64,000 nt of DNA from Pseudorhodoplanes sp. (GTDB lineage: Bacteria > Pseudomonadota > Alphaproteobacteria > Rhizobiales > Xanthobacteraceae). Numbering within the stretch: the stretch's first letter is position 1; each line of letters begins with the position of its first letter. The notes under the pieces were generated by a model, which was given only the letters and a program-made list of their open reading frames with translations, made no database searches and had not been told where the DNA came from. The stretch spans positions 3,121,126 to 3,185,125 of the forward strand of contig JAVSMS010000001.1 of assembly GCA_032027085.1 (NCBI GenBank), in the 5' to 3' direction. This document shows, in pieces, positions 8 through 11,464 of the stretch. The position numbers and the translations under genes were made by a program.

Positions 8-1051
8 TCACTTGCGCATCATGGCGGACTGTGCCGGAGACTGCTTCTGCGCCGGCGAGAAGTTGAGTACGACCCAGAAGTTCCAGCCTTCCGGCCGGTT
101 CTCGGCCTCGAATTCCCAGTAGCTTTTCACGTTCAGCAGACCCTGAATGTCAGTGCCGACCGGAAAGATATATCCGATCTGCGGTCCGATGCCGCCTACG
201 CGCGACTTGAACGGGCCGAGCGTCGCGCCGGCGCCGCTGTCGCCGGTGATCTGTTGGTACCAGTAACCGACCGCGCCGACGAAGAACTGCTTGTTGAGGA
301 ATTGCGAAATGCCCCAGTCGGTATGCCAGTCGATGCCGTTCTTGTAGTCGATATGCGTGTTTTCGAAATTGTAGGTGAAGCCGGTGACGACGGAGAATTC
401 ATGTCCCTTCGTTGGATCGAAATAGGTGTAGCCGGCGCCACCATCCAGCGCCCAATGCCCAAACCCGAGATTGACCAGCCGATGGGCTTCGTAGGAACCA
501 ACCGGCAAATTTGTCATGCCGTAAACCATGTAATTGTGAACGCCATGATTCCACCGGAGCGACGGCCACAGCAGAACATCGCCGAAGGCGTCCAGCGACT
601 GGCTGACGCTGCGCGACGTGGCAAAGCCGATCGGGCCCAGCGCGCCGGTGATGTTCGCGTTGACCTCCGCCTGTTGCCGGCCATAGGCGGCGATCAGGGC
701 GATCGAGAACTGGCCGCCCAGGATCGGCTCCGCCGCCGTGTAGCTCGGGCCGCTGAGCACAAGATCGGCCTTCGCATCCATGGTGGCGTTCAGGCTGACG
801 TTCAGATTTGCCGTCTGGTTGCCGAAGCGGATCGACCGTGAGGCTGCGACATTGCCGCCGGCCGACACGTCCGTGTGATAGTAAATCGTCGCCCAGCTCC
901 AGCCCGCCGTCAGCGGCGCCGCGGCCAGACTTCCATACGCTCCGGGCAGCCAGAAACTGACGCCGCCCTGGTCGGCGGACGCGGGCGCACCGCTTGCTAC
1001 CAGCATCATGAGTCCGAGAACACGTCCCAGCGTCCTGCTCTTGCGTCTCAT
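8..1051 (-). CDS. SphA-like exported outer-membrane protein
   Basis: Predicted outer-membrane beta-barrel of the SphA / 'meta-pathway' transporter-like family. The start is ATG at 1051: it has a purine-rich AGGGGGGC ribosome site just upstream and begins a textbook signal peptide (basic MRRKSR, a hydrophobic run, then cleavage near PASAD). An in-frame start 21 codons upstream would put an unlikely extension before the signal peptide. The mature protein is rich in aromatic, alternating strands and ends in short strands such as WNFWVVLNF, as expected of a barrel. It lies 1 bp after the stop of the small membrane gene, so it is the last gene of a three-gene unit. Family members are linked to uptake of hydrophobic or aromatic compounds; the substrate here is unknown. 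Confidence 0.7.
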   Translation of the reverse strand: MRRKSRTLGRVLGLMMLVASGAPASADQGGVSFWLPGAYGSLAAAPLTAGWSWATIYYHTDVSAGGNVAASRSIRFGNQTANLNVSLNATMDAKADLVLSGPSYTAAEPILGGQFSIALIAAYGRQQAEVNANITGALGPIGFATSRSVSQSLDAFGDVLLWPSLRWNHGVHNYMVYGMTNLPVGSYEAHRLVNLGFGHWALDGGAGYTYFDPTKGHEFSVVTGFTYNFENTHIDYKNGIDWHTDWGISQFLNKQFFVGAVGYWYQQITGDSGAGATLGPFKSRVGGIGPQIGYIFPVGTDIQGLLNVKSYWEFEAENRPEGWNFWVVLNFSPAQKQSPAQSAMMRK

Positions 1052-1052
1052 A

Positions 1053-1283
1053 CTATGCCCCCCTGTTGTTCGAATCGACTTCCTGGAAGTTTCCCTCAGA
1101 ACGGATTGAGACAAAGCCGAAGAAGAATGTCACCCAGCCCGCTACGTTGACTCTCTGCGCGAAAGGATGATTGCGGCGCCTGACGATGATACCCGGCAGC
1201 ATCGCCATGAAGACGATGACGAAGATCGTGCTCGCCGCCAGCACGATCAGGACGATCCCGGCGACGATGTCGAGGCCGGTCAT
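1053..1283 (-). CDS. Small inner-membrane protein, DUF3302-like (76 aa)
   Basis: Short gene lying within a longer open frame. The real start is the ATG at 1283, which overlaps the stop of the DUF1622 gene in an ATGA arrangement typical of translational coupling. The product has a hydrophobic helix (about residues 5-30), a basic RRRNHPFAQ segment and a second helix starting AGWVTFFF. The RNHP...AGW pattern matches what I recall of the DUF3302 (YiaW-like) inner-membrane family. It ends 1 bp before the SphA-like start. Function unknown; probably works with the flanking membrane proteins. Confidence 0.65.
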   Translation of the reverse strand: MTGLDIVAGIVLIVLAASTIFVIVFMAMLPGIIVRRRNHPFAQRVNVAGWVTFFFGFVSIRSEGNFQEVDSNNRGA

Positions 1284-1678
1284 GATGCCGTTCCCACGCT
1301 GCCGGATTTCGCGGGCTCGCGTTCGCGCTCCCGTTCGCGCATCTCGCCGATATCCTTTTCCAGGAAATAGTTGAGCAGCGTGCGGATGATCGCGATCACC
1401 GCGAGGCGCCCGACATCGTCCCACGTCGGCGCGATCGAGGTCTCGATGATGTCGGCACCGAGCTGAAAGGTGAGGGCGGCGACCAGCCAGCGTCCGAAGC
1501 GCAGCCAGACCGCGCGCTTTTCGTGGCCGTCCGGCTCGCCGAATATCAGCCTGAGGCCGCCGATGGCCGCCTCGATCGTGCCGATGATGACAATCAGCAG
1601 CGCGATCGCGTCGATGATCGTTGCCGCAAACTCGGTCGCGAGCGCCAGCCACCCCTTCATGAGTTCAAGCGTGGTCAA
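1280..1678 (-). CDS. DUF1622 family membrane protein
   Basis: 132-residue integral membrane protein of the DUF1622 type, with three hydrophobic helices. The middle part reads EAAIGGLRLIFGE, then LGADIIETSIAPTW and AVIAIIRTLLNYFLEKDI, which are the family landmarks. The C-terminus is charged (EREREREP). TTG at 1678 is chosen as start because a clear GGAGG lies seven bases upstream; the next ATG (1660) has no ribosome site. First gene of the unit with the DUF3302-like and SphA-like genes. The biochemical role of DUF1622 proteins is not known. Confidence 0.8.
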   Translation of the reverse strand: MTTLELMKGWLALATEFAATIIDAIALLIVIIGTIEAAIGGLRLIFGEPDGHEKRAVWLRFGRWLVAALTFQLGADIIETSIAPTWDDVGRLAVIAIIRTLLNYFLEKDIGEMREREREREPAKSGSVGTAS

Positions 1679-1877
1679 AGACTTTCCTCCGGTCGTTCAC
1701 CGCGAGTTCCGATGGAACTTGCGAGCGTCGGGAGTTCCCGCGTGTCCCAAAAGACACGTCACCTCGAGATGAGAGGCATTTTCTCCTGCTGGTTGAGGCG
1801 TGCGGCGAAAAGTGTATTGGCCCGGCCGCGCCGAGGTGACAGCGTGATGACAGGGCGATTCTTATCTGGGGGAAGAC

Positions 1878-2099
1878 TTGGCTTTCGATCCGATGCCGGC
1901 GGGCGGCAGTGGCCCGCATGGACCATTCTGCACGAGTTGCCGTGAGCCCATCGCCGAAGGGCAGCGCAGCATCCGCATCGACTTCGGCCACGATCCGCAG
2001 GGCCATCGCGGGCTGAGCGGGCTCTACCACGAGCGGTGCGGCCGGCCGTTTCAGTCGCTGGCGCACGCGCTGCACGTGCTGTCGTTCAGGCCGTTCTAG
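1878..2099 (+). CDS. Small Cys/His protein, possible zinc-binding (73 aa)
   Basis: Small plus-strand gene between two minus-strand operons. It starts with TTG, preceded five bases away by a GGGGGA ribosome site. The product contains a CTSC pair near residue 19 and a YHERC group near residue 52, spaced like a four-ligand zinc site (C-x2-C ... H-x2-C). The rest is polar, with no signal peptide or membrane helix, so it is probably cytoplasmic. I do not recognise a named family. The longer opposing frame covering 1665-2123 is arginine-rich and taken as a shadow. Confidence 0.5.
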   Translation: MAFDPMPAGGSGPHGPFCTSCREPIAEGQRSIRIDFGHDPQGHRGLSGLYHERCGRPFQSLAHALHVLSFRPF

Positions 2100-2166
2100 A
2101 CGAAGCATTGTCTTGCGCCTCATGCAGTCGCGGGCGGCGAGGGCAATCCCGCCGCCCGAAGCAGCA

Positions 2167-3708
2167 TCAGCCTCCGCCGGCCGTCTCTCTCATTTTCTCG
2201 ATCGCCTCGTCAATCGTGAAGCTGTTCGGCTTCTGTATTGGCGGGAAGTCCTTGAAGGTTTCCGCGAATTTTGCCGCGATCATGTTGATCGTGAAGACGA
2301 TGTAGTCGCGGCGGAGGAACCACTCCCAGTAGGTGTTCGACGTGATTTCGGCGAACTCATACGGATCGGTCCGCAGGTTGTAGAGCTTGGGAAGCCGCAG
2401 CCGCGTGAACGGCTCCGCCCACACCTGGAGCGTGCCCTTGCATCGCTGCTCCATGAACACAACCTTCCAGTTGTCGTAACGCAGCGCGATGATGTCGCCG
2501 TCGTCGCTGATATAGACGAACAGCTTGCGTGGACTCTCCTTCTCCTGTCCGGTGAGGTAGGGAAGCAGATTGTAGCCGTCGATGTGGTTCTTGTAGGTGC
2601 GGCCGCAGGCCTGATAGCCCTTCTTCGCCTTCTCCACGATGTCCGGCTCGCCGGCGGCTGCAAGGAAAGTCGGGAACCAGTCATGGTGCTGAACGATCTC
2701 CGTCGAGGTCTGCCCCGGCCTGATCTTGCCCGGCCAGCGCACGATCATCGGTATGCGGAACGCGCCTTCCCAGTTGGTATTCTTCTCCGAACGGAACGGC
2801 GTCATGCCGCCGTCCGGCCAGGTGTTGCGGTGGGGCCCGTTGTCCGTTGAATACTGCACGAATGTATTTTCGCTTATGCCGAGCTCGTCGAGCAGATCGA
2901 GCATCTGCCCCACATTCTTGTCGTGATCGACCATCGTGTCATGATAGGGCGACTGCCAGCGGCCGGCCTGGCCGAGGCTTTCCTTCTTGGTGTGCGTGTA
3001 AAGGTGCATGTGGGTGGTGTTGAGCCACACGAACCACGGCTTGCCGTCGGCCTCGGCGCGCTTGATGAAATCCTTGGCCGCCGCAACGAACTCGTCGTCG
3101 CAGGTTTCCATGCGCTTGCGCGTCAACGGGCCGGTATCCTCGATCTTCTGCCTGCCGACCTTGCCCCAGCGGGGCTCGACCGTTGCGTCGTCCTTGTCGG
3201 TCGCCCAGGAATGAATGACGCCGCGCGGTCCATAATTCTTGCGATAGTTTGGATAGTCCTTTTCCGGCGGGTAGTCGTACATCTCCGGCTCTTCCTCGGC
3301 GTTCAGGTGATAGAGATTGCCGAAGAACTCGTCGAAGCCGTGATTGGTCGGCAGCATGTGGTTGAGATCGCCGAGATGGTTCTTGCCGAACTGCCCGGTG
3401 GCATAGCCCTGGTTTTTCAGGGCGCCGGCAATTGTGAGAGCCTTCTCGGTCATCCCGATCGGGGCGCCGGGGAAGCCCACTTTTGAGAGGCCGGTCCGCA
3501 GGACGCTCTGCCCCGTGATGAAGGACGAACGGCCGGCGGTGCAGGATTGCTCACCGTAACTGTCGATAAACATCATGCCTTCCCTGGCGAGACGGTCGAT
3601 GTTCGGCGTCCGGTAGCCCATGAGTCCGTGCGAGTAGCAGCTCAAGTTCGAGATACCGATATCGTCGCCCCAGATGACGAGGATGTTGGGCTTTCCGCTT
3701 TTGGCCAT
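2167..3708 (-). CDS. Type I sulfatase (arylsulfatase family), copy 1
   Basis: Sulfate-ester hydrolase of the alkaline phosphatase superfamily, 513 residues. The N-terminus carries the metal-binding WGDDIG segment. At about residue 56 lies CTAGR, the C-x-(P/A)-x-R signature whose cysteine is converted to formylglycine. A DNGPH metal/active-site segment follows in the middle. ATG 3708 is chosen (GGGAGA seven bases upstream) over a TTG two codons earlier. No signal peptide is visible, so the enzyme looks cytoplasmic. It is the last gene of the sulfatase operon, a paralogue of its upstream neighbour, and in the same operon as its presumed activating enzyme. The natural substrate cannot be read from sequence. 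Confidence 0.92.
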   Translation of the reverse strand: MAKSGKPNILVIWGDDIGISNLSCYSHGLMGYRTPNIDRLAREGMMFIDSYGEQSCTAGRSSFITGQSVLRTGLSKVGFPGAPIGMTEKALTIAGALKNQGYATGQFGKNHLGDLNHMLPTNHGFDEFFGNLYHLNAEEEPEMYDYPPEKDYPNYRKNYGPRGVIHSWATDKDDATVEPRWGKVGRQKIEDTGPLTRKRMETCDDEFVAAAKDFIKRAEADGKPWFVWLNTTHMHLYTHTKKESLGQAGRWQSPYHDTMVDHDKNVGQMLDLLDELGISENTFVQYSTDNGPHRNTWPDGGMTPFRSEKNTNWEGAFRIPMIVRWPGKIRPGQTSTEIVQHHDWFPTFLAAAGEPDIVEKAKKGYQACGRTYKNHIDGYNLLPYLTGQEKESPRKLFVYISDDGDIIALRYDNWKVVFMEQRCKGTLQVWAEPFTRLRLPKLYNLRTDPYEFAEITSNTYWEWFLRRDYIVFTINMIAAKFAETFKDFPPIQKPNSFTIDEAIEKMRETAGGG

Positions 3709-3823
3709 TGTCAATTCTCCCTACTGCTTCCGGGACTATGGTTGCTTGGGTTCACATATTTGCCTCTGCGATGATCGTTGGAGAGCGGACGGCGGGATCG
3801 CTCCCGCCGCCCGAAACGACGCA

Positions 3824-5365
3824 TTACCTGCTGCCGCCCGTCGCACCCTCACGCAGCTTTTCCAGCACCTGGTCCACGCCGAAGGAACCAGCGGCTTGGC
3901 TCGGCGGGAACTCCTTGAACGTCGCCAGGAACTCGCCGACGATGTGCTGCGCGGGTACGCAGATAAAGGCATGGTCGAACCACCAGTCGTAGTATGTGTT
4001 CGATGTTATATCCGCGCGCTCATACGGATCGGTCCGCAGATTGAAGAGCTTGGGAAACCGTAGCGTCGTGAACGGCTCACCCCAGATCTTCAACGTCCCC
4101 GTAGCGCGCTGCTCCGAGAAGACGAACTTCCAGTTGTCATAGCGCAAGCCGACCAGATCGGAGTCGTCATTGAAGTAGAAGAACTCCTTGCGCGGACTCT
4201 CCTTCGTCTGGCCGGTCAGCAGCGGCAGCAGGTTGTAGCCGTCGAGATGCACCTTGAAGGTCGCATCGCCGACCTTCATGCCCTTGAGCAGCTTCTCCTT
4301 CACGTCGGGAATTCCGGCCGCGGCCAGCAGCGTCGGCGCCCAGTCGAGGTGCGCCACGATCTCGTTGCAGATGGTTCCGGCCTTGATGTGGCCAGGCCAC
4401 CTGACCATGCAGGGGACGCGGAAGGCGCCTTCCCAGTTCGAATTCTTCTCGTTGCGGAAGGGCGTCATCGCGCCGTCCGGCCAGGTGTTCATATGCGGAC
4501 CGTTGTCGGTGGAATACATGACGATCGTGTCGTCCGTCATGCCCAGGTCGTCCAGCGCCTTGAGCACCGTGCCGACGTTCTTGTCGTGGTCGATCATGGT
4601 GTCGTGGTAGGGGCTCTGCCAGCGGCCGGCCTGCCCGATGCTCTCGGGTTTGGTGTGCGTGCGCAGGTGCATGTGGGTGAAGTTCACCCAGAGGAAGACG
4701 GGCTTGTCGGCGGCCTTCTGCCGCTTCAGAAAGTCCACCGCTCGCTCGGCGAAGTCGTCGTCGCAGGTTTCCATCCGCTTCTTGGTCAGCGGGCCGGTGT
4801 CCTTGATTGTCTGCTTGCCGATCTTGCCGAAGCGCGGATCCACCGTCGGGTCATCTACGTCAGTCGCTTTGCAATCCAGGACACCGCGTGGTCCGTAGTT
4901 CGCAAAGAAGTTCGGGAAGTCCTTCGATTTCGGGTAGTCCGGCAGTTCGGGTTCCTCGGAGGCGTTCAGGTGGTAGAGGGCGCCATAGAACTCGTCGAAG
5001 CCGTGGACGGTCGGAAGGTGCTCGTTTCGGTCGCCGAGGTGGTTCTTGCCGAACTGGGCCGTGGCGTAGCCCTGTGCCTTGAGCAACTGGGCGATGGTCA
5101 CATCGCGGGCCTGCAGGCCCTGCGCGGCGCCTGGCATGCCTACCTTGGTGTTGCCCGTGCGGAATCCGCACTGTCCGGTAATGAACGAAGAGCGACCGGC
5201 TGTGCAGCTCTGCTCCGCGTATGAGTCGGTGAATCGTATTCCTTCGCTGGCGATGCGGTCGATGTTTGGGGTTCGGTAGCCCATCAGCCCGTCCGAATAG
5301 GCACTGATGTTGCTCTGGCCGATGTCGTCGCCCCAGATGATCACGATGTTTGGCTTCTTGCTCAT
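3824..5365 (-). CDS. Type I sulfatase (arylsulfatase family), copy 2
   Basis: Second sulfatase of 513 residues, collinear with its downstream paralogue from the WGDDIG metal site through SCTAGRSSFITGQ (formylglycine cysteine at about residue 54) to the DNGPH segment. The frame stays open far upstream, but the real start is the ATG at 5365, which has a GGAGGA ribosome site and begins MSKKPNIVIIWGDD, matching the paralogue. No signal peptide. The divergence between copies suggests an old duplication, perhaps with different substrate preference. Lies between the DUF202 gene and sulfatase copy 1. Confidence 0.92.
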   Translation of the reverse strand: MSKKPNIVIIWGDDIGQSNISAYSDGLMGYRTPNIDRIASEGIRFTDSYAEQSCTAGRSSFITGQCGFRTGNTKVGMPGAAQGLQARDVTIAQLLKAQGYATAQFGKNHLGDRNEHLPTVHGFDEFYGALYHLNASEEPELPDYPKSKDFPNFFANYGPRGVLDCKATDVDDPTVDPRFGKIGKQTIKDTGPLTKKRMETCDDDFAERAVDFLKRQKAADKPVFLWVNFTHMHLRTHTKPESIGQAGRWQSPYHDTMIDHDKNVGTVLKALDDLGMTDDTIVMYSTDNGPHMNTWPDGAMTPFRNEKNSNWEGAFRVPCMVRWPGHIKAGTICNEIVAHLDWAPTLLAAAGIPDVKEKLLKGMKVGDATFKVHLDGYNLLPLLTGQTKESPRKEFFYFNDDSDLVGLRYDNWKFVFSEQRATGTLKIWGEPFTTLRFPKLFNLRTDPYERADITSNTYYDWWFDHAFICVPAQHIVGEFLATFKEFPPSQAAGSFGVDQVLEKLREGATGGSR

Positions 5366-5502
5366 TTTAGTCCTCCGGTTGGCATCAAGTCGTTTCGTGC
5401 GAGTCGTGCGGGTCTCTGCGCGAGTTGGTCGCAACGCGTTTCTTCTTTTGCGGAACTTCCCTTGTTGACATCGGCCGCCTCCTGGATCTGCCGTCCGTGG
5501 GT

Positions 5503-5961
5503 TCACCCGAACGGGCCGACCTCGAACAGCATGCTGACGATGGCGAAGATGCCGATCGCCAGCAGAATGATCGCCGTCAGCAACGTGAGTGAAACCGGGA
5601 ATTTGCTTTCGCCATGCACCAGCCCCCCGGTGATCATGGTTTTTCTCTGCTCGCGCAGGTGCAGCATGAACTGAAGATGATAGGCGATGCCGCCGATCAG
5701 CATCACGATGCCGAGCGCAACCAGCGCCACGCCGAAGTTTCGTGGCGCCGCCGCGTGAGCCAGCGTCCCGGCATCCTTCAGCTTCTCGAAGAACTGGAAG
5801 ATTGTGAAGCCGAAACCGATCAGCGACAGCGAGGTACGGATCACCGACATCAGCGTGCGGTCCGCGCTCATGCGCGTGCGCTGGAATGACATGCCGGTGC
5901 GGCGGGATGACAGCTCGACCGACACGTCGTCTGGTGGTGATTTTGCGGCGACAGTGTTCAT
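5503..5961 (-). CDS. DUF202 (YidH-like) membrane protein
   Basis: Small inner-membrane protein of the DUF202/YidH type, 152 residues from ATG 5961. It has the family's polar start RTLMSVIRTSLSLIGFGFTIFQF followed by three hydrophobic helices. Most DUF202 proteins are about 110-120 residues; here the C-terminal part is longer, with a third helix ending FEVGPFG. An earlier in-frame start at 5997 would add twelve residues without a better ribosome site. It sits between the amber-interrupted membrane gene and sulfatase copy 2 in the same orientation. Function unknown. Confidence 0.8.
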   Translation of the reverse strand: MNTVAAKSPPDDVSVELSSRRTGMSFQRTRMSADRTLMSVIRTSLSLIGFGFTIFQFFEKLKDAGTLAHAAAPRNFGVALVALGIVMLIGGIAYHLQFMLHLREQRKTMITGGLVHGESKFPVSLTLLTAIILLAIGIFAIVSMLFEVGPFG

Positions 5962-6040
5962 CCTTCCGGCCCTTTTGAGACAGTGCGCTGACTGCACAGT
6001 GCATCGATTGCGATTCTCTGATCAGTAATGCAACGCAGGA

Positions 6041-7258
6041 TCAGAGCAGAAGACTCGCGACAGATTTCCAGATTTCATCGAGGGGGAATGCCAGCAGAAC
6101 CACCGGCACAAATGGCAGCAGGATTGCCGCCGCAAGCATGATCAGGTCCTTGATGCCCACCGGCACGAAGCGGATGGCGTGAACGTTCGCCACAACCGCA
6201 TAGAGATCGTTGACGGCGGAGAAATCCGGATTCTCCAGCAGGCTGCCGCGATCGGCTTGCGGCGCCCCGAGCCATTTGTGCTCGAAGGCATGCCCGGCTT
6301 CGTCGGCAAGGGCGCCATAGGCGAGCGCACCCCGCCGCCATACGCGCGTCAGCGTCGGCGTAAATACCAGGAGCGGGGCGAGGAACAGCGCCATGAGGCT
6401 CAACATCAGGCCAAAGTTGAAGGCGAGTTGCGGCGTTGGCAGTCCGCTGCCGGACAACACCATGTAAGCGGAGCGGCCGGCGGCGACGGCCGCGAGGGCC
6501 ATCGCAACAGGAGCGAAGGCGCGCAGGGACTGTCCAAGGAAGCCGAGCCCTGCGCAGTGGTCAGGGTGTGACGCCACCAGCCGCAGGTCGAACGTTGAGA
6601 TCAGCCAGAGCAGCCGCGTCCACACGGCCAGTCGCCACAGCCAGCCGAAGATGAGAACCAGCAGCAACGGCAGGCTGACCAGCATGTGCCACCAGCCGGC
6701 GGGAGACAGAAACGGCGTGATGCCGGCCGATACGGCCTAGGCCGGCAAGTCTTCACGCTGATACGAGAGGATCGTCGCCAGCACGATCAGGTAGGCACAC
6801 ACGAATGTGGCGACTTCCGTGCTTCGCGATTGCAGAAGAATGCGCGTGGACGACAGCGCATCCGTGAACCGGCTCTGGTCGTTCGGGCGCACCATGCCGC
6901 TTTCGGCGAAGTGCCGCGTTATTGTGTTGATCTGCGGGACACACCACGCTTCCGCCAGCACCAGCAATGGCACGGCGGCGAGATAGCGCGCGTGCACGCC
7001 GACCTGGACGAGAAGGGGCGTAACGTGGTCCGCATGCAGCCACAGGCTTTGCGCGATCGCGAACAGGAAAAGCGGCAACCATGCGACCAGGGCGAGCAGC
7101 AGGGCGCGCCGTCCGATGTTGAGCGCGTGCGGCTTGGCCAGGCCGAGCCATTGCTGCACCGCCAGCGGCGGCGCCTGTTCGAACAGGGCGGCGTTGTCGC
7201 TGCCGCTCATCGGCTGGCTTCTGCCGTCGGTCGTGGAATATGCGAGGGTGGCTGACAT
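6041..7258 (-). pseudogene. Conserved multi-helix membrane protein, interrupted by an in-frame amber codon
   Basis: Two open frames, 7258-6737 and 6736-6041, lie in the same frame, separated only by a TAG at 6739-6737. Read through, they give one membrane protein of about 404 residues. The first part has MSAT..., helices and an ITRHFAESG region; the second resumes AVSAGITPFLSPAGWWH and continues with helices and an FEHKWLG...YAVVANVHA region. I recall a conserved hypothetical family with both halves in one chain and a tryptophan after 'LPA', so TGG to TAG is the simplest explanation. Start ATG 7258 has GAGGG upstream. A downstream ATG at 6685 could allow reinitiation of the second half. It may be a pseudogene, a readthrough gene or a sequencing error. 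Confidence 0.75.
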
Positions 7259-7268
7259 CTTTCGACCC

Positions 7269-7769
7269 TCAGCCCGTTGCCCTGCGCGCGAGCCACCAGC
7301 GCGCGAGCATTTCGACGATCCATCGGAAGATGAAATAGGGGATGACTGCGAGCAGGATCGCGATCACCGCCGCCTCCGCCGGATAGAACGCGTCGAGCTC
7401 CTTGAATTGGTAGATGACATCCATGCAGATGCCGAGCAGCAGCACGCGTGCAACCGACGTCAGCCCTTCACGCAGGCGGCCGGTTGGTTGTGTGTGATCG
7501 AACCACGCCGTCCAGAAGAAGGATTTGTGCCCTTGACGTGCGTCCCTGAGGCCATCGTGGACGGCGGCAAGCGCGGCCATGGTCGGCTGCAGGAAAAAGC
7601 GAAAGGTCATCGGCCCACCGAAGCGGGCGAAGATGTCGCCCCAGAAGCGCTGGTGCACATCGAGCGAGAAGCCGTGCATGGCGATGCCAGCGATGAGCAG
7701 AGCCGCCGTGAGGCCGACCACTCCCCATGTGAAATAGGAGGCTCTGGGAGAGGGAGTATCGGTGGTCAT
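7269..7769 (-). CDS. Conserved integral membrane protein in sulfatase operon
   Basis: 166-residue membrane protein from ATG 7769 (GGAGG upstream). It has an N-terminal helix (WGVVGLTAALLIAGIAMHG), a soluble stretch FGGPMTFRFFLQPTMAA with HDGLRDARQG, and two further helices after REGLTSVARVLLL. It lies 26 bp downstream of the formylglycine-generating enzyme and 10 bp upstream of the amber-interrupted gene, so co-transcription is very likely. I recall it as a conserved hypothetical family without assigned function. The context suggests a membrane partner for the sulfatases, but that is inference. Confidence 0.75.
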   Translation of the reverse strand: MTTDTPSPRASYFTWGVVGLTAALLIAGIAMHGFSLDVHQRFWGDIFARFGGPMTFRFFLQPTMAALAAVHDGLRDARQGHKSFFWTAWFDHTQPTGRLREGLTSVARVLLLGICMDVIYQFKELDAFYPAEAAVIAILLAVIPYFIFRWIVEMLARWWLARRATG

Positions 7770-7795
7770 GCGGCCCGGCCTCCCTTTGCCTACGT

Positions 7796-8788
7796 CTATC
7801 CGCCGTTCCGCTGCCTGAGCACGCAACGGAAGCCGACATGGCTTGTGGATGTGTCCACCGGCTCCGCATGACGCGCGGCCGGTCGATAGCGGCGGCAGTA
7901 ATTCGGCGCGCACAGGTGCGAGCCGCCTTTCAAAACCTTTCGTGGAATCCTGATCTGCGGCTGACAGGGGTCGTAGCTGTCTTCTTCACGTCCGCCGCGC
8001 GGGTTTTCCGGAATGCAGCAGGCCTTCTGCGCGTCGCCTTCATGCTTTGGCGTGTACCAGTCGCTCGTCCACTCCCAGACATTGCCGATCATGTCGTGGA
8101 TCCCGTAGCCATTCGGCGGGAAGGCGGTGACGGGGGAAGTGCGCGCAAAGCCGTCGCTGCACAGATTCTCCTGCGGGAAGTTGCCCTGCCAGGTGTTGGC
8201 CATCTGCTGGCCGTCCGGCGTGAGTTCATCGCCCCAGGCGAACTCCGCCTCTTCCAGTCCGCCGCGTGCCGCGAATTCCCACTCGGCTTCCGTTGGCAGA
8301 TCCTTGCCAGCCCAGCACGCATAGGCGAGGGCGTCGGAATAGGCGACATGCACGACGGGGTGATTGTCGAGGCCGTTGATGTTGCTCTTGGGTCCGTAGG
8401 GATGGCGCCAGTCGGCGCCCTTCAGGAAGGTCCACCACTGCGACCAGTCGCGCAGATCGACAGGATGCTTCGGCGGCGAGAATACCAGCGATCCTGCATA
8501 CAGCATGTGCGGTAACGCCCCGGGATAGTCCTTCGCGTCCGGCACGATCTCGGCGACCGCGACGTGTCCCGTTGCGCGCACAAAATCTCTGAATTGCCGA
8601 TTGGTGACAGGCGTGCGGTCGATGAAGAAAGGGTCAACACTGACATGATGAACCGGCGCCTCTTCTGGGTAATGCCGGTCCGAACCCATGCGAAACGTGC
8701 CGCCGGGCACAAGGATCATGTTGGAGCGAATGCCGCTCTCACCGTCCGCTCGTTCAACGTTACTGGACTCTGTATTCAGCAGGGTCAT
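7796..8788 (-). CDS. Formylglycine-generating enzyme (sulfatase-modifying factor)
   Basis: Oxidises the cysteine of the sulfatase C-x-(P/A)-x-R motif to formylglycine, the catalytic residue of type I sulfatases. The FGE-sulfatase fold is visible from VPGGTFRMGSD through DLPTEAEWEFAARGG and IGNVWEWTSDWY to the C-terminal GGSHLCAPNYCRRYR. The two cysteines there (about residues 293 and 298) correspond to the copper-binding catalytic pair of aerobic FGE, so this is a true FGE rather than a family member lacking them. ATG 8788 is taken as start; a TTG seven codons upstream is possible and neither has a strong ribosome site. First gene of the sulfatase operon; its substrates are probably the two downstream sulfatases. 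Confidence 0.92.
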   Translation of the reverse strand: MTLLNTESSNVERADGESGIRSNMILVPGGTFRMGSDRHYPEEAPVHHVSVDPFFIDRTPVTNRQFRDFVRATGHVAVAEIVPDAKDYPGALPHMLYAGSLVFSPPKHPVDLRDWSQWWTFLKGADWRHPYGPKSNINGLDNHPVVHVAYSDALAYACWAGKDLPTEAEWEFAARGGLEEAEFAWGDELTPDGQQMANTWQGNFPQENLCSDGFARTSPVTAFPPNGYGIHDMIGNVWEWTSDWYTPKHEGDAQKACCIPENPRGGREEDSYDPCQPQIRIPRKVLKGGSHLCAPNYCRRYRPAARHAEPVDTSTSHVGFRCVLRQRNGG

Positions 8789-8966
8789 TGCAATTGACTT
8801 CGCACGCAACAGGACTTCGGCAGCAATAATAAGAATCGAGATGACAACAGGAAACGTCAGAGAAGGGTCGAATGGGTCAGTGTTCCTGACACAGATTTAA
8901 ATCAAGTGCGGAATACTCACGCATCCGATTGAAGTGCCCACACAAAAAGCTATCATAATTTTTTCT

Positions 8967-9158: not shown

Positions 9159-10502
9159 ATGAAATCCATCGCCTCGTTTCTTGCCTCGTTTCTTGCCGCC
9201 GCAGTCATTTCAGCAATTTCCAGTTTTCCGGTCCTCGCCCAGAATACCTCCCAGAGCGGAAAGCCGCCGCTGAAGGCCGAGGAGCTTGACCAGTTGGTCT
9301 CGCCGATCGCGCTCTATCCGGACAATCTGCTGTCGCAGGTGCTGATCGCGTCGACCTATCCGCTGGAAGTCGTGCAGGCGGATCGCTGGGTGAAGGACAA
9401 CAAGTCGCTCAAGGGCAGCGCACTGAAGGCGGCCGCCGACAAGCAGGGCTGGGACGACAGCATCAAGTCGCTCACCGCGGTGCCCGATGTGCTGACCATG
9501 ATGTCCTCGCAGCTCGACTGGACGCAGAAGCTGGGCGATGCCGTTCTCGCACAGCAGCCGGACGTGATGGATGCGGTCCAGCGACTGCGGGCAAAGGCGG
9601 ATGCGAACGACAAGCTCAAGACCACGCAGCAGCAGAAGGTTTCGAAGAGTTCTCAGGGCGGGAAACAGACGATCGTGATCGAGCCGACGGTGCCGGAGAC
9701 GCTCTACGTTCCCTATTACGATCCCGGCGTCGTTTATGGGGCGTGGCCCTACGCCGAGTATCCGCCGTACTACTTCCCGGCGCCAGGCTATATCGCCAGC
9801 GGGGTGATCGCGACCGGCATTGCCTTCGCAACCGGCGTTGCGGTTGGCGCGTGGGCCGGGCGCGGAAACTGGTGGGGCGGCAGCTTCAACTGGGGCAACA
9901 ACAACATCAACATCAACAACGATATCGACATCAACAAGCGCAACAACTGGGTTCACAATCCGGATCACCGTCACGGCGTGCGCTACAACAACGATGCGGT
10001 GCGCAACAAATTCGCCAAGGGCGATGGCGGCAACCGCGAGAACCGCATGGACTTCCGCGGCCGCGACGGCCAGCAGGTGCTGAAGCCGGACAGCCGCGAT
10101 CTGAAGCCCGGAGATGCCAAGCCGGGCGCGCGCGATCGGCCGGACACGGGCAAGCGCCCCGGCGGCGGAGATCGGCCGGATGCCGGCAAGCGTCCCGGCG
10201 GTGGCCACAAGCAGGCCTCACGCCCCGGCGGAGACAAGGCCGGGCAGCACCGGCCGGATCGTGACCGGCCATCGTCACGCCCGAGCGGAAGTCGCGATGG
10301 GGCCATGTCGCATATCGATCGCGGCGCGCATGAGCGCGCCAGCGGCAATCGCGGTCGCGCCAGCGCAGGACACATGGCCGGCGGACCGCGCCCGGGCGGC
10401 GGCATTCAACGCGGCGGCGGCCCGCGTCCGGGCGGAGGCATTCACGCTGGCGGACGCCCCGGCGGCGGTGCCGCGCGCGGCGGCGGCGGACGCCGCCGGT
10501 GA
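9159..10502 (+). CDS. Exported DUF3300 domain protein
   Basis: 447-residue exported protein. The signal peptide ends about residue 28 (FPVLAQ). A DUF3300 domain follows (about 35-230), marked by LVSPIALYPDNLLSQVLIA, YPLEVVQADRW and VPYYDPGVVYGAWPYAEYPPYYF. The C-terminal third is low complexity: an asparagine-rich NNININN run near residues 247-265, then glycine/arginine/proline repeats of the RPGGG type to the end. ATG 9159 follows GGGAGGGTGAG. The DUF2950 gene starts 20 bp after its stop, a pairing seen in other proteobacteria. Function unknown; envelope location is expected. Confidence 0.88.
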   Translation: MKSIASFLASFLAAAVISAISSFPVLAQNTSQSGKPPLKAEELDQLVSPIALYPDNLLSQVLIASTYPLEVVQADRWVKDNKSLKGSALKAAADKQGWDDSIKSLTAVPDVLTMMSSQLDWTQKLGDAVLAQQPDVMDAVQRLRAKADANDKLKTTQQQKVSKSSQGGKQTIVIEPTVPETLYVPYYDPGVVYGAWPYAEYPPYYFPAPGYIASGVIATGIAFATGVAVGAWAGRGNWWGGSFNWGNNNININNDIDINKRNNWVHNPDHRHGVRYNNDAVRNKFAKGDGGNRENRMDFRGRDGQQVLKPDSRDLKPGDAKPGARDRPDTGKRPGGGDRPDAGKRPGGGHKQASRPGGDKAGQHRPDRDRPSSRPSGSRDGAMSHIDRGAHERASGNRGRASAGHMAGGPRPGGGIQRGGGPRPGGGIHAGGRPGGGAARGGGGRRR

Positions 10503-10522
10503 CACAGGACGCGGAGAGCGAG

Positions 10523-11464
10523 ATGCAGACCTTCATCAAGAGTCACATGAGGCCGCTCGCCCTGTGCGCGATCATCGTGCTCACGCTTGTGGGCGGAATG
10601 GATATCGCCCAGGCCCAGCAGAAATTCGCATCGCCGGACGAGGCGGTGACCGCGCTGGTCGCGGCCGCGCGCGCCAACAATGACCGCGACGTGGTGCGCA
10701 TTCTCGGAGACCGCGAGCTCGTTTTTTCCGGCGATCCGGTGGCGGATGGCCAGCGGCGGCAGGCGTTTCTGCTGGCCTATGACGCACGCCATCAGCTCAA
10801 CAAGCAGGGGGACAGCAAGGCCGAACTCGTCATCGGGCCGAACGACTGGCCGTTCCCGATCCCTCTGGTGGAGAAGAACGGCTCATGGTGGTTCGATACG
10901 GCAAGCGGACGTGAGGAGGTTCTCTATCGCCGCATCGGACGCAACGAACTCGCCGCGATCCAGGTCGCGCTCGCCTATGTCGATGCGCAGAACGACTACG
11001 CATCCATGAATCCGACCGGCGGGAAAGTCGACAGTTACGCGCAGCGCTTCTTCAGCACGCCGGGAAAGAAAGATGGCCTGTACTGGCCGTCCGCCGCGAA
11101 TGAACCGCGCAGCCCCCTCGGCGAGACCGTCGTGCTCGCCACCGCCGAAGGCTATCGTTTCGGCGAGGGGCAGATCCCGTATCACGGCTACTACTACAGG
11201 ATATTGAAGTCACAGGGGCCGAACGCGCCGGGCGGCGCCGTGAACTATGTCGTCAACGGCAACATGATCGGCGGCTTCGCGCTCGTCGCCTATCCGGCCG
11301 AATACGGCAATTCCGGCGTGATGACGTTTCTCGTGAACAATGCCGGCGTCGTCTTCCAGAAGGATCTCGGGCCGAAAACGTCGCGGATTGCCTCGCGCAT
11401 GACCGCCTTCAATCCTGATCACACTTGGCGGAAGGTCTCTGCCGAAGATCTGGCGGTGAGATGA
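10523..11464 (+). CDS. Exported DUF2950 domain protein
   Basis: 313-residue exported protein of the DUF2950 family. The signal peptide ends near DIAQAQ. The domain shows SPDEAVTALVAAARANN, WWFDTASGREEVLYRRIG, PYHGYYYRILKSQGPNAPGG and GFALVAYPAEYGNSGVMTF, which are typical of the family. ATG 10523 is chosen because GGAG lies six bases upstream; an alternative GTG overlapping the previous stop lacks one. It is the second gene of the operon with DUF3300. No enzymatic activity is established for DUF2950. Confidence 0.88.
   Translation: MQTFIKSHMRPLALCAIIVLTLVGGMDIAQAQQKFASPDEAVTALVAAARANNDRDVVRILGDRELVFSGDPVADGQRRQAFLLAYDARHQLNKQGDSKAELVIGPNDWPFPIPLVEKNGSWWFDTASGREEVLYRRIGRNELAAIQVALAYVDAQNDYASMNPTGGKVDSYAQRFFSTPGKKDGLYWPSAANEPRSPLGETVVLATAEGYRFGEGQIPYHGYYYRILKSQGPNAPGGAVNYVVNGNMIGGFALVAYPAEYGNSGVMTFLVNNAGVVFQKDLGPKTSRIASRMTAFNPDHTWRKVSAEDLAVR

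Follow-up and report, generated by a model that had tools for sequence, protein, structure and literature searches.

An in-frame amber codon in a conserved membrane-protein gene of a Pseudorhodoplanes sulfatase cluster, probably a recent nonsense mutation

Incipient bacterial pseudogenes that carry a single nonsense codon retain a conserved frame with no other damage, and the gene is intact in their relatives. In-frame stops that are themselves conserved have also been reported in bacteria (PMC7918605), for example in a Paenibacillus sulfotransferase family, where constrained sequence lies on both sides of the TAG; such stops are common to several species at one position. The gene described here, from a Pseudorhodoplanes sp., resembles the former in all these respects and differs from them only in being known from one assembly. 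It shares with the latter the constrained sequence on both sides, whereas its own TAG occurs in none of 22 relatives. The encoded protein aligns over its full length with an uncharacterised family of membrane proteins of about 400 residues that are encoded near sulfatases, as seen around one homologue from the same taxonomic family (L068) and on a Neorhizobium petrolearium plasmid (L012). An LSxAGWWH signature is common to this copy and the nearer members of the family. Unlike those members, it is interrupted at codon 174.

The window, the whole stretch of DNA that was analysed, comprises 64,000 nucleotides of a single-contig genome of 4,968,360 bases. On its minus strand, a frame that opens at ATG 7258 and reaches the stop ending at 6041 spans 405 codons, with the TAG at 6739-6737 as its sole lesion. 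The upstream part of the gene (6740..7258) has 173 codons, the amber codon itself (6737..6739) is codon 174, and the downstream part (6041..6736) has 231 codons and the stop. G+C at the three codon positions is 0.66/0.47/0.82 on the 5' side of the TAG and 0.69/0.47/0.79 on the 3' side, the pattern of coding DNA in both cases. A chance pair of open frames does not account for this arrangement, because homologues align across the TAG, each as one open frame (E values of 4e-110 for L003 and 6e-121 for L065). The gene is present once, with no second copy found in the same 4,968,360 bases.

Searches that covered some 1,230 genomes together with a genome collection and plasmids found relatives at identities of 25-53%. 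All 22 homologues that were read out are single unbroken chains, and 21 have tryptophan in the column of the TAG, the exception being L006 with a phenylalanine beside a gap. Neither a stop codon nor a gene boundary occurs at this position in any of the 22. Partial matches and missing annotation had pointed to split or truncated homologues in Sinorhizobium and on related plasmids, and the four that were read out proved to be full single frames. The best homologue, L065, belongs to another genus of the same family, is 51-53% identical and is encoded by an intact gene. The gene had no match in the seven other sampled genomes of the genus, some of them incomplete, and is thus patchy there. The protein has no family in Pfam or NCBIfam. 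No function was obtained from a PDB profile search, nor from a fold search with a low-confidence model (pLDDT 66), for which the best E value was 0.12. An earlier note on this DNA, made from the window alone, had described two open frames in one reading frame separated only by this TAG, and had stated that homologues have both parts in one chain and tryptophan at the stop. The frame, the coding G+C and the homologues bear out each of these points. The alignment of the joined translation that it proposed shows the relatives to be unbroken across the TAG, and homologues encoded as two genes with their boundary here, which would have spoken for a normal gene border, were looked for and are absent (0/22).

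The sequence beyond the stop has not decayed. Of the 54 positions in it that do not vary among eight close homologues, 52 have the same residue here, and the match is complete, 27 of 27, at those invariant in all thirteen compared. In a tree of the 3' part its branch length is 0.28, as against 0.43 and 0.50 for the intact L065 and L003, so that neither measure reveals relaxed constraint after the TAG. Three situations would produce this pattern, and one assembly does not tell them apart: a very recent event, continued translation of the 3' part, or an erroneous base. We consider a very recent single-base nonsense change, from the conserved tryptophan codon to an amber stop, to be the probable explanation (probability roughly 0.6), with the gene disrupted and a possible polar effect on the sulfatases. 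Most simply, the change is an ordinary kind of event and not a new mode of protein production. That the base is real, the product dead and the effect polar is what we infer. Translation would be terminated by release factor 1 after residue 173, and the truncated product, which would have about three hydrophobic segments, probably does not function. Between the TAG and the DUF202 start of the next gene, some 740-780 nt of mRNA would be left largely untranslated, and expression of the sulfatase genes may therefore be lowered by polarity. The membrane gene would then be a pseudogene at its very start.

The alternative to be weighed most carefully, although we regard it as unlikely, is a base-call or consensus error in an organism that has the tryptophan and an intact gene, a possibility that the earlier note had raised by proposing a check of read support. 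The change is isolated and its surroundings are undecayed, as an error would leave them, and its context is suggestive. The minus strand reads CCTAG at 6737..6741, which would be CCTGG, a Dcm-type CCWGG site, if the codon were the tryptophan that the homologues indicate as ancestral. This motif, when methylated, is a site of nanopore consensus errors: when default basecallers were applied to nanopore data from a genome with Dcm methylation, about 70% of the consensus errors fell there (PMC6591954). Dcm-type and other C5-methyltransferase genes are present in the genome, and each of its two Vsr genes adjoins a C5-methyltransferase gene (L057:1525-2971 and G000:C1:1427018-1428605). The methyltransferase of the first pair (L057:1525-2971) closely resembles a Dcm-type enzyme of solved structure (3lx6, E 2e-92); its gene nevertheless seems truncated, for the N-terminal motif I is missing from the enzyme, while the Vsr beside it is complete. 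A screen of 464 kb of the genome for stops that separate two coding-like stretches of one frame, which is blind to frameshifts, returned 30 boundaries. Those read out, in the window and elsewhere, from among the ones with a distant restart or otherwise questionable, proved to be shadows of genes on the opposite strand or borders between ordinary adjacent genes, so that the TAG at 6739-6737 is the only clear internal stop in the 464 kb. The assembly is thus unlikely to be rich in errors throughout, although a lone error would be compatible with this result. The CCTGG context also fits a real mutation. CCWGG is a known hotspot of C-to-T change, with Vsr as its dedicated repair enzyme (PMC3527292). 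The ancestral tryptophan codon, together with the preceding GCC, would have formed a CCTGG target for Dcm, and deamination of 5-methylcytosine on the opposite strand would convert it to exactly TAG. Such an origin of the nonsense change is possible, judging from the sequence; the loss of motif I weighs against it, as does the fact that CCWGG is depleted to the same extent in a genus relative. In this genome, from which 20 stretches were sampled, the observed/expected ratio is 0.79, and in the relative it is 0.78, an under-representation in both whose equal value rules out the depletion as a sign of Dcm activity. GGATCC is also under-represented, with observed/expected ratios of 0.58 in this genome (L070-L089 and the window, G000) and 0.54 in another of the same genus (L090-L109, G006). 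Since mutation and methylation-linked base-call error look alike at CCTGG, reads are needed before a biological meaning is assigned to the stop.

Two further readings, both raised by the earlier note, take the codon as real and the downstream part as still translated. In one, enough ribosomes pass the amber codon for full-length protein to be made in useful amounts beside the truncated form. We find this improbable, even though the 3' part is constrained like coding sequence and the TAG is followed by a G, a mildly favourable base (in E. coli reporters, readthrough was promoted by high G after the stop, PMC11126739). Mean readthrough of TAG in those reporters was below 1% (PMC11126739), release factor 1 is encoded here by an open gene, and no CUA tRNA is among the 44 tRNAs found, a list that is incomplete in that Ile-GAU and Ala-UGC are missing. 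A selenocysteine tRNA gene lies at L056:52-150; it is a tRNA-Sec (UGA) and has no bearing on the TAG. An RNA hairpin at the TAG was rejected, as the surrounding sequence folds no better than its shuffles (z -1.05). With these observations and no stop at this column in 22 homologues, the suggestion of programmed readthrough has gained no positive evidence. That the codon is put to use in any way, either as leaky termination that would set the ratio of truncated to full-length protein or as the border of two assembling fragments, with selection keeping the 3' half, is likewise improbable. In the other reading, which we hold to be the least probable, translation reinitiates at ATG 6685 and the membrane protein is assembled from the two resulting pieces. 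This ATG (6683..6685, minus strand) is codon 192, the first standard start after the TAG and 51 nt past it, and a low-confidence model places the TAG in the loop that joins two predicted helices, 145-164 and 186-221. A split thus appears geometrically possible from the model but is otherwise unsupported. None of the 22 homologues is split, and the ATG has only a weak GGTGG before it, at a distance of three bases. Nor is Met192 a conserved residue: several relatives have Ala, Thr or Gly in its place. A restart there would also omit residues 175-191, which include the conserved LSxAGWWH, and a working split protein through ATG 6685 accordingly finds no backing. Overall, the interpretation given in the earlier note stands as regards the single chains, the tryptophan and the recent nonsense mutation, the last of these favoured by the undecayed 3' part, and lacks support as regards the split protein and the programmed readthrough.

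The interrupted gene lies in a cluster on the minus strand whose remaining genes are all open, as the note had also stated. Upstream of it are a formylglycine-generating (sulfatase-modifying) enzyme (7796..8809; PF03781, E 6e-85) and a small membrane protein (7269..7913), which also adjoins the membrane gene in L068. The next gene downstream encodes a DUF202 membrane protein (5503..5997; PF02656, E 1e-13), with a candidate start at 5961 preceded by GGAAGG. It is followed by sulfatase 1 (3824..5404; PF00884 and tblastn extent), whose true start lies near 5400, the mechanical ORF extending to 6004, and by sulfatase 2 (2167..3714; PF00884). A gene (1280..1678) homologous to one that carries the annotation DUF1622 in the N. 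petrolearium cluster, and an outer-membrane transporter-like protein (8..1114) complete the cluster. Gene order in L068, the surroundings of L065, is that of the window: formylglycine-generating enzyme, small membrane protein, membrane gene, DUF202, sulfatase and DUF1622. L068 has an extra sulfatase-like gene after the membrane gene, and a transporter nearby on the other strand. The two ORFs are a single gene, which belongs to an unnamed membrane family and lies within a conserved sulfatase cluster; in annotation they should be entered as a disrupted gene or else compared with the reads.

The related cluster on the N. petrolearium plasmid (L012) makes the arrangement recurrent: in the window (8-8809, minus strand), L068 and L012, a formylglycine-generating enzyme, small and ~400-residue membrane proteins, DUF202, one or two sulfatases, DUF1622 and a transporter occur together. 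Beside the cluster in the window, genes homologous to ones with the annotations DUF3300 and DUF2950 are oriented divergently (9159-11464, plus strand), and on the N. petrolearium plasmid the DUF3300/DUF2950 genes directly precede the membrane gene.
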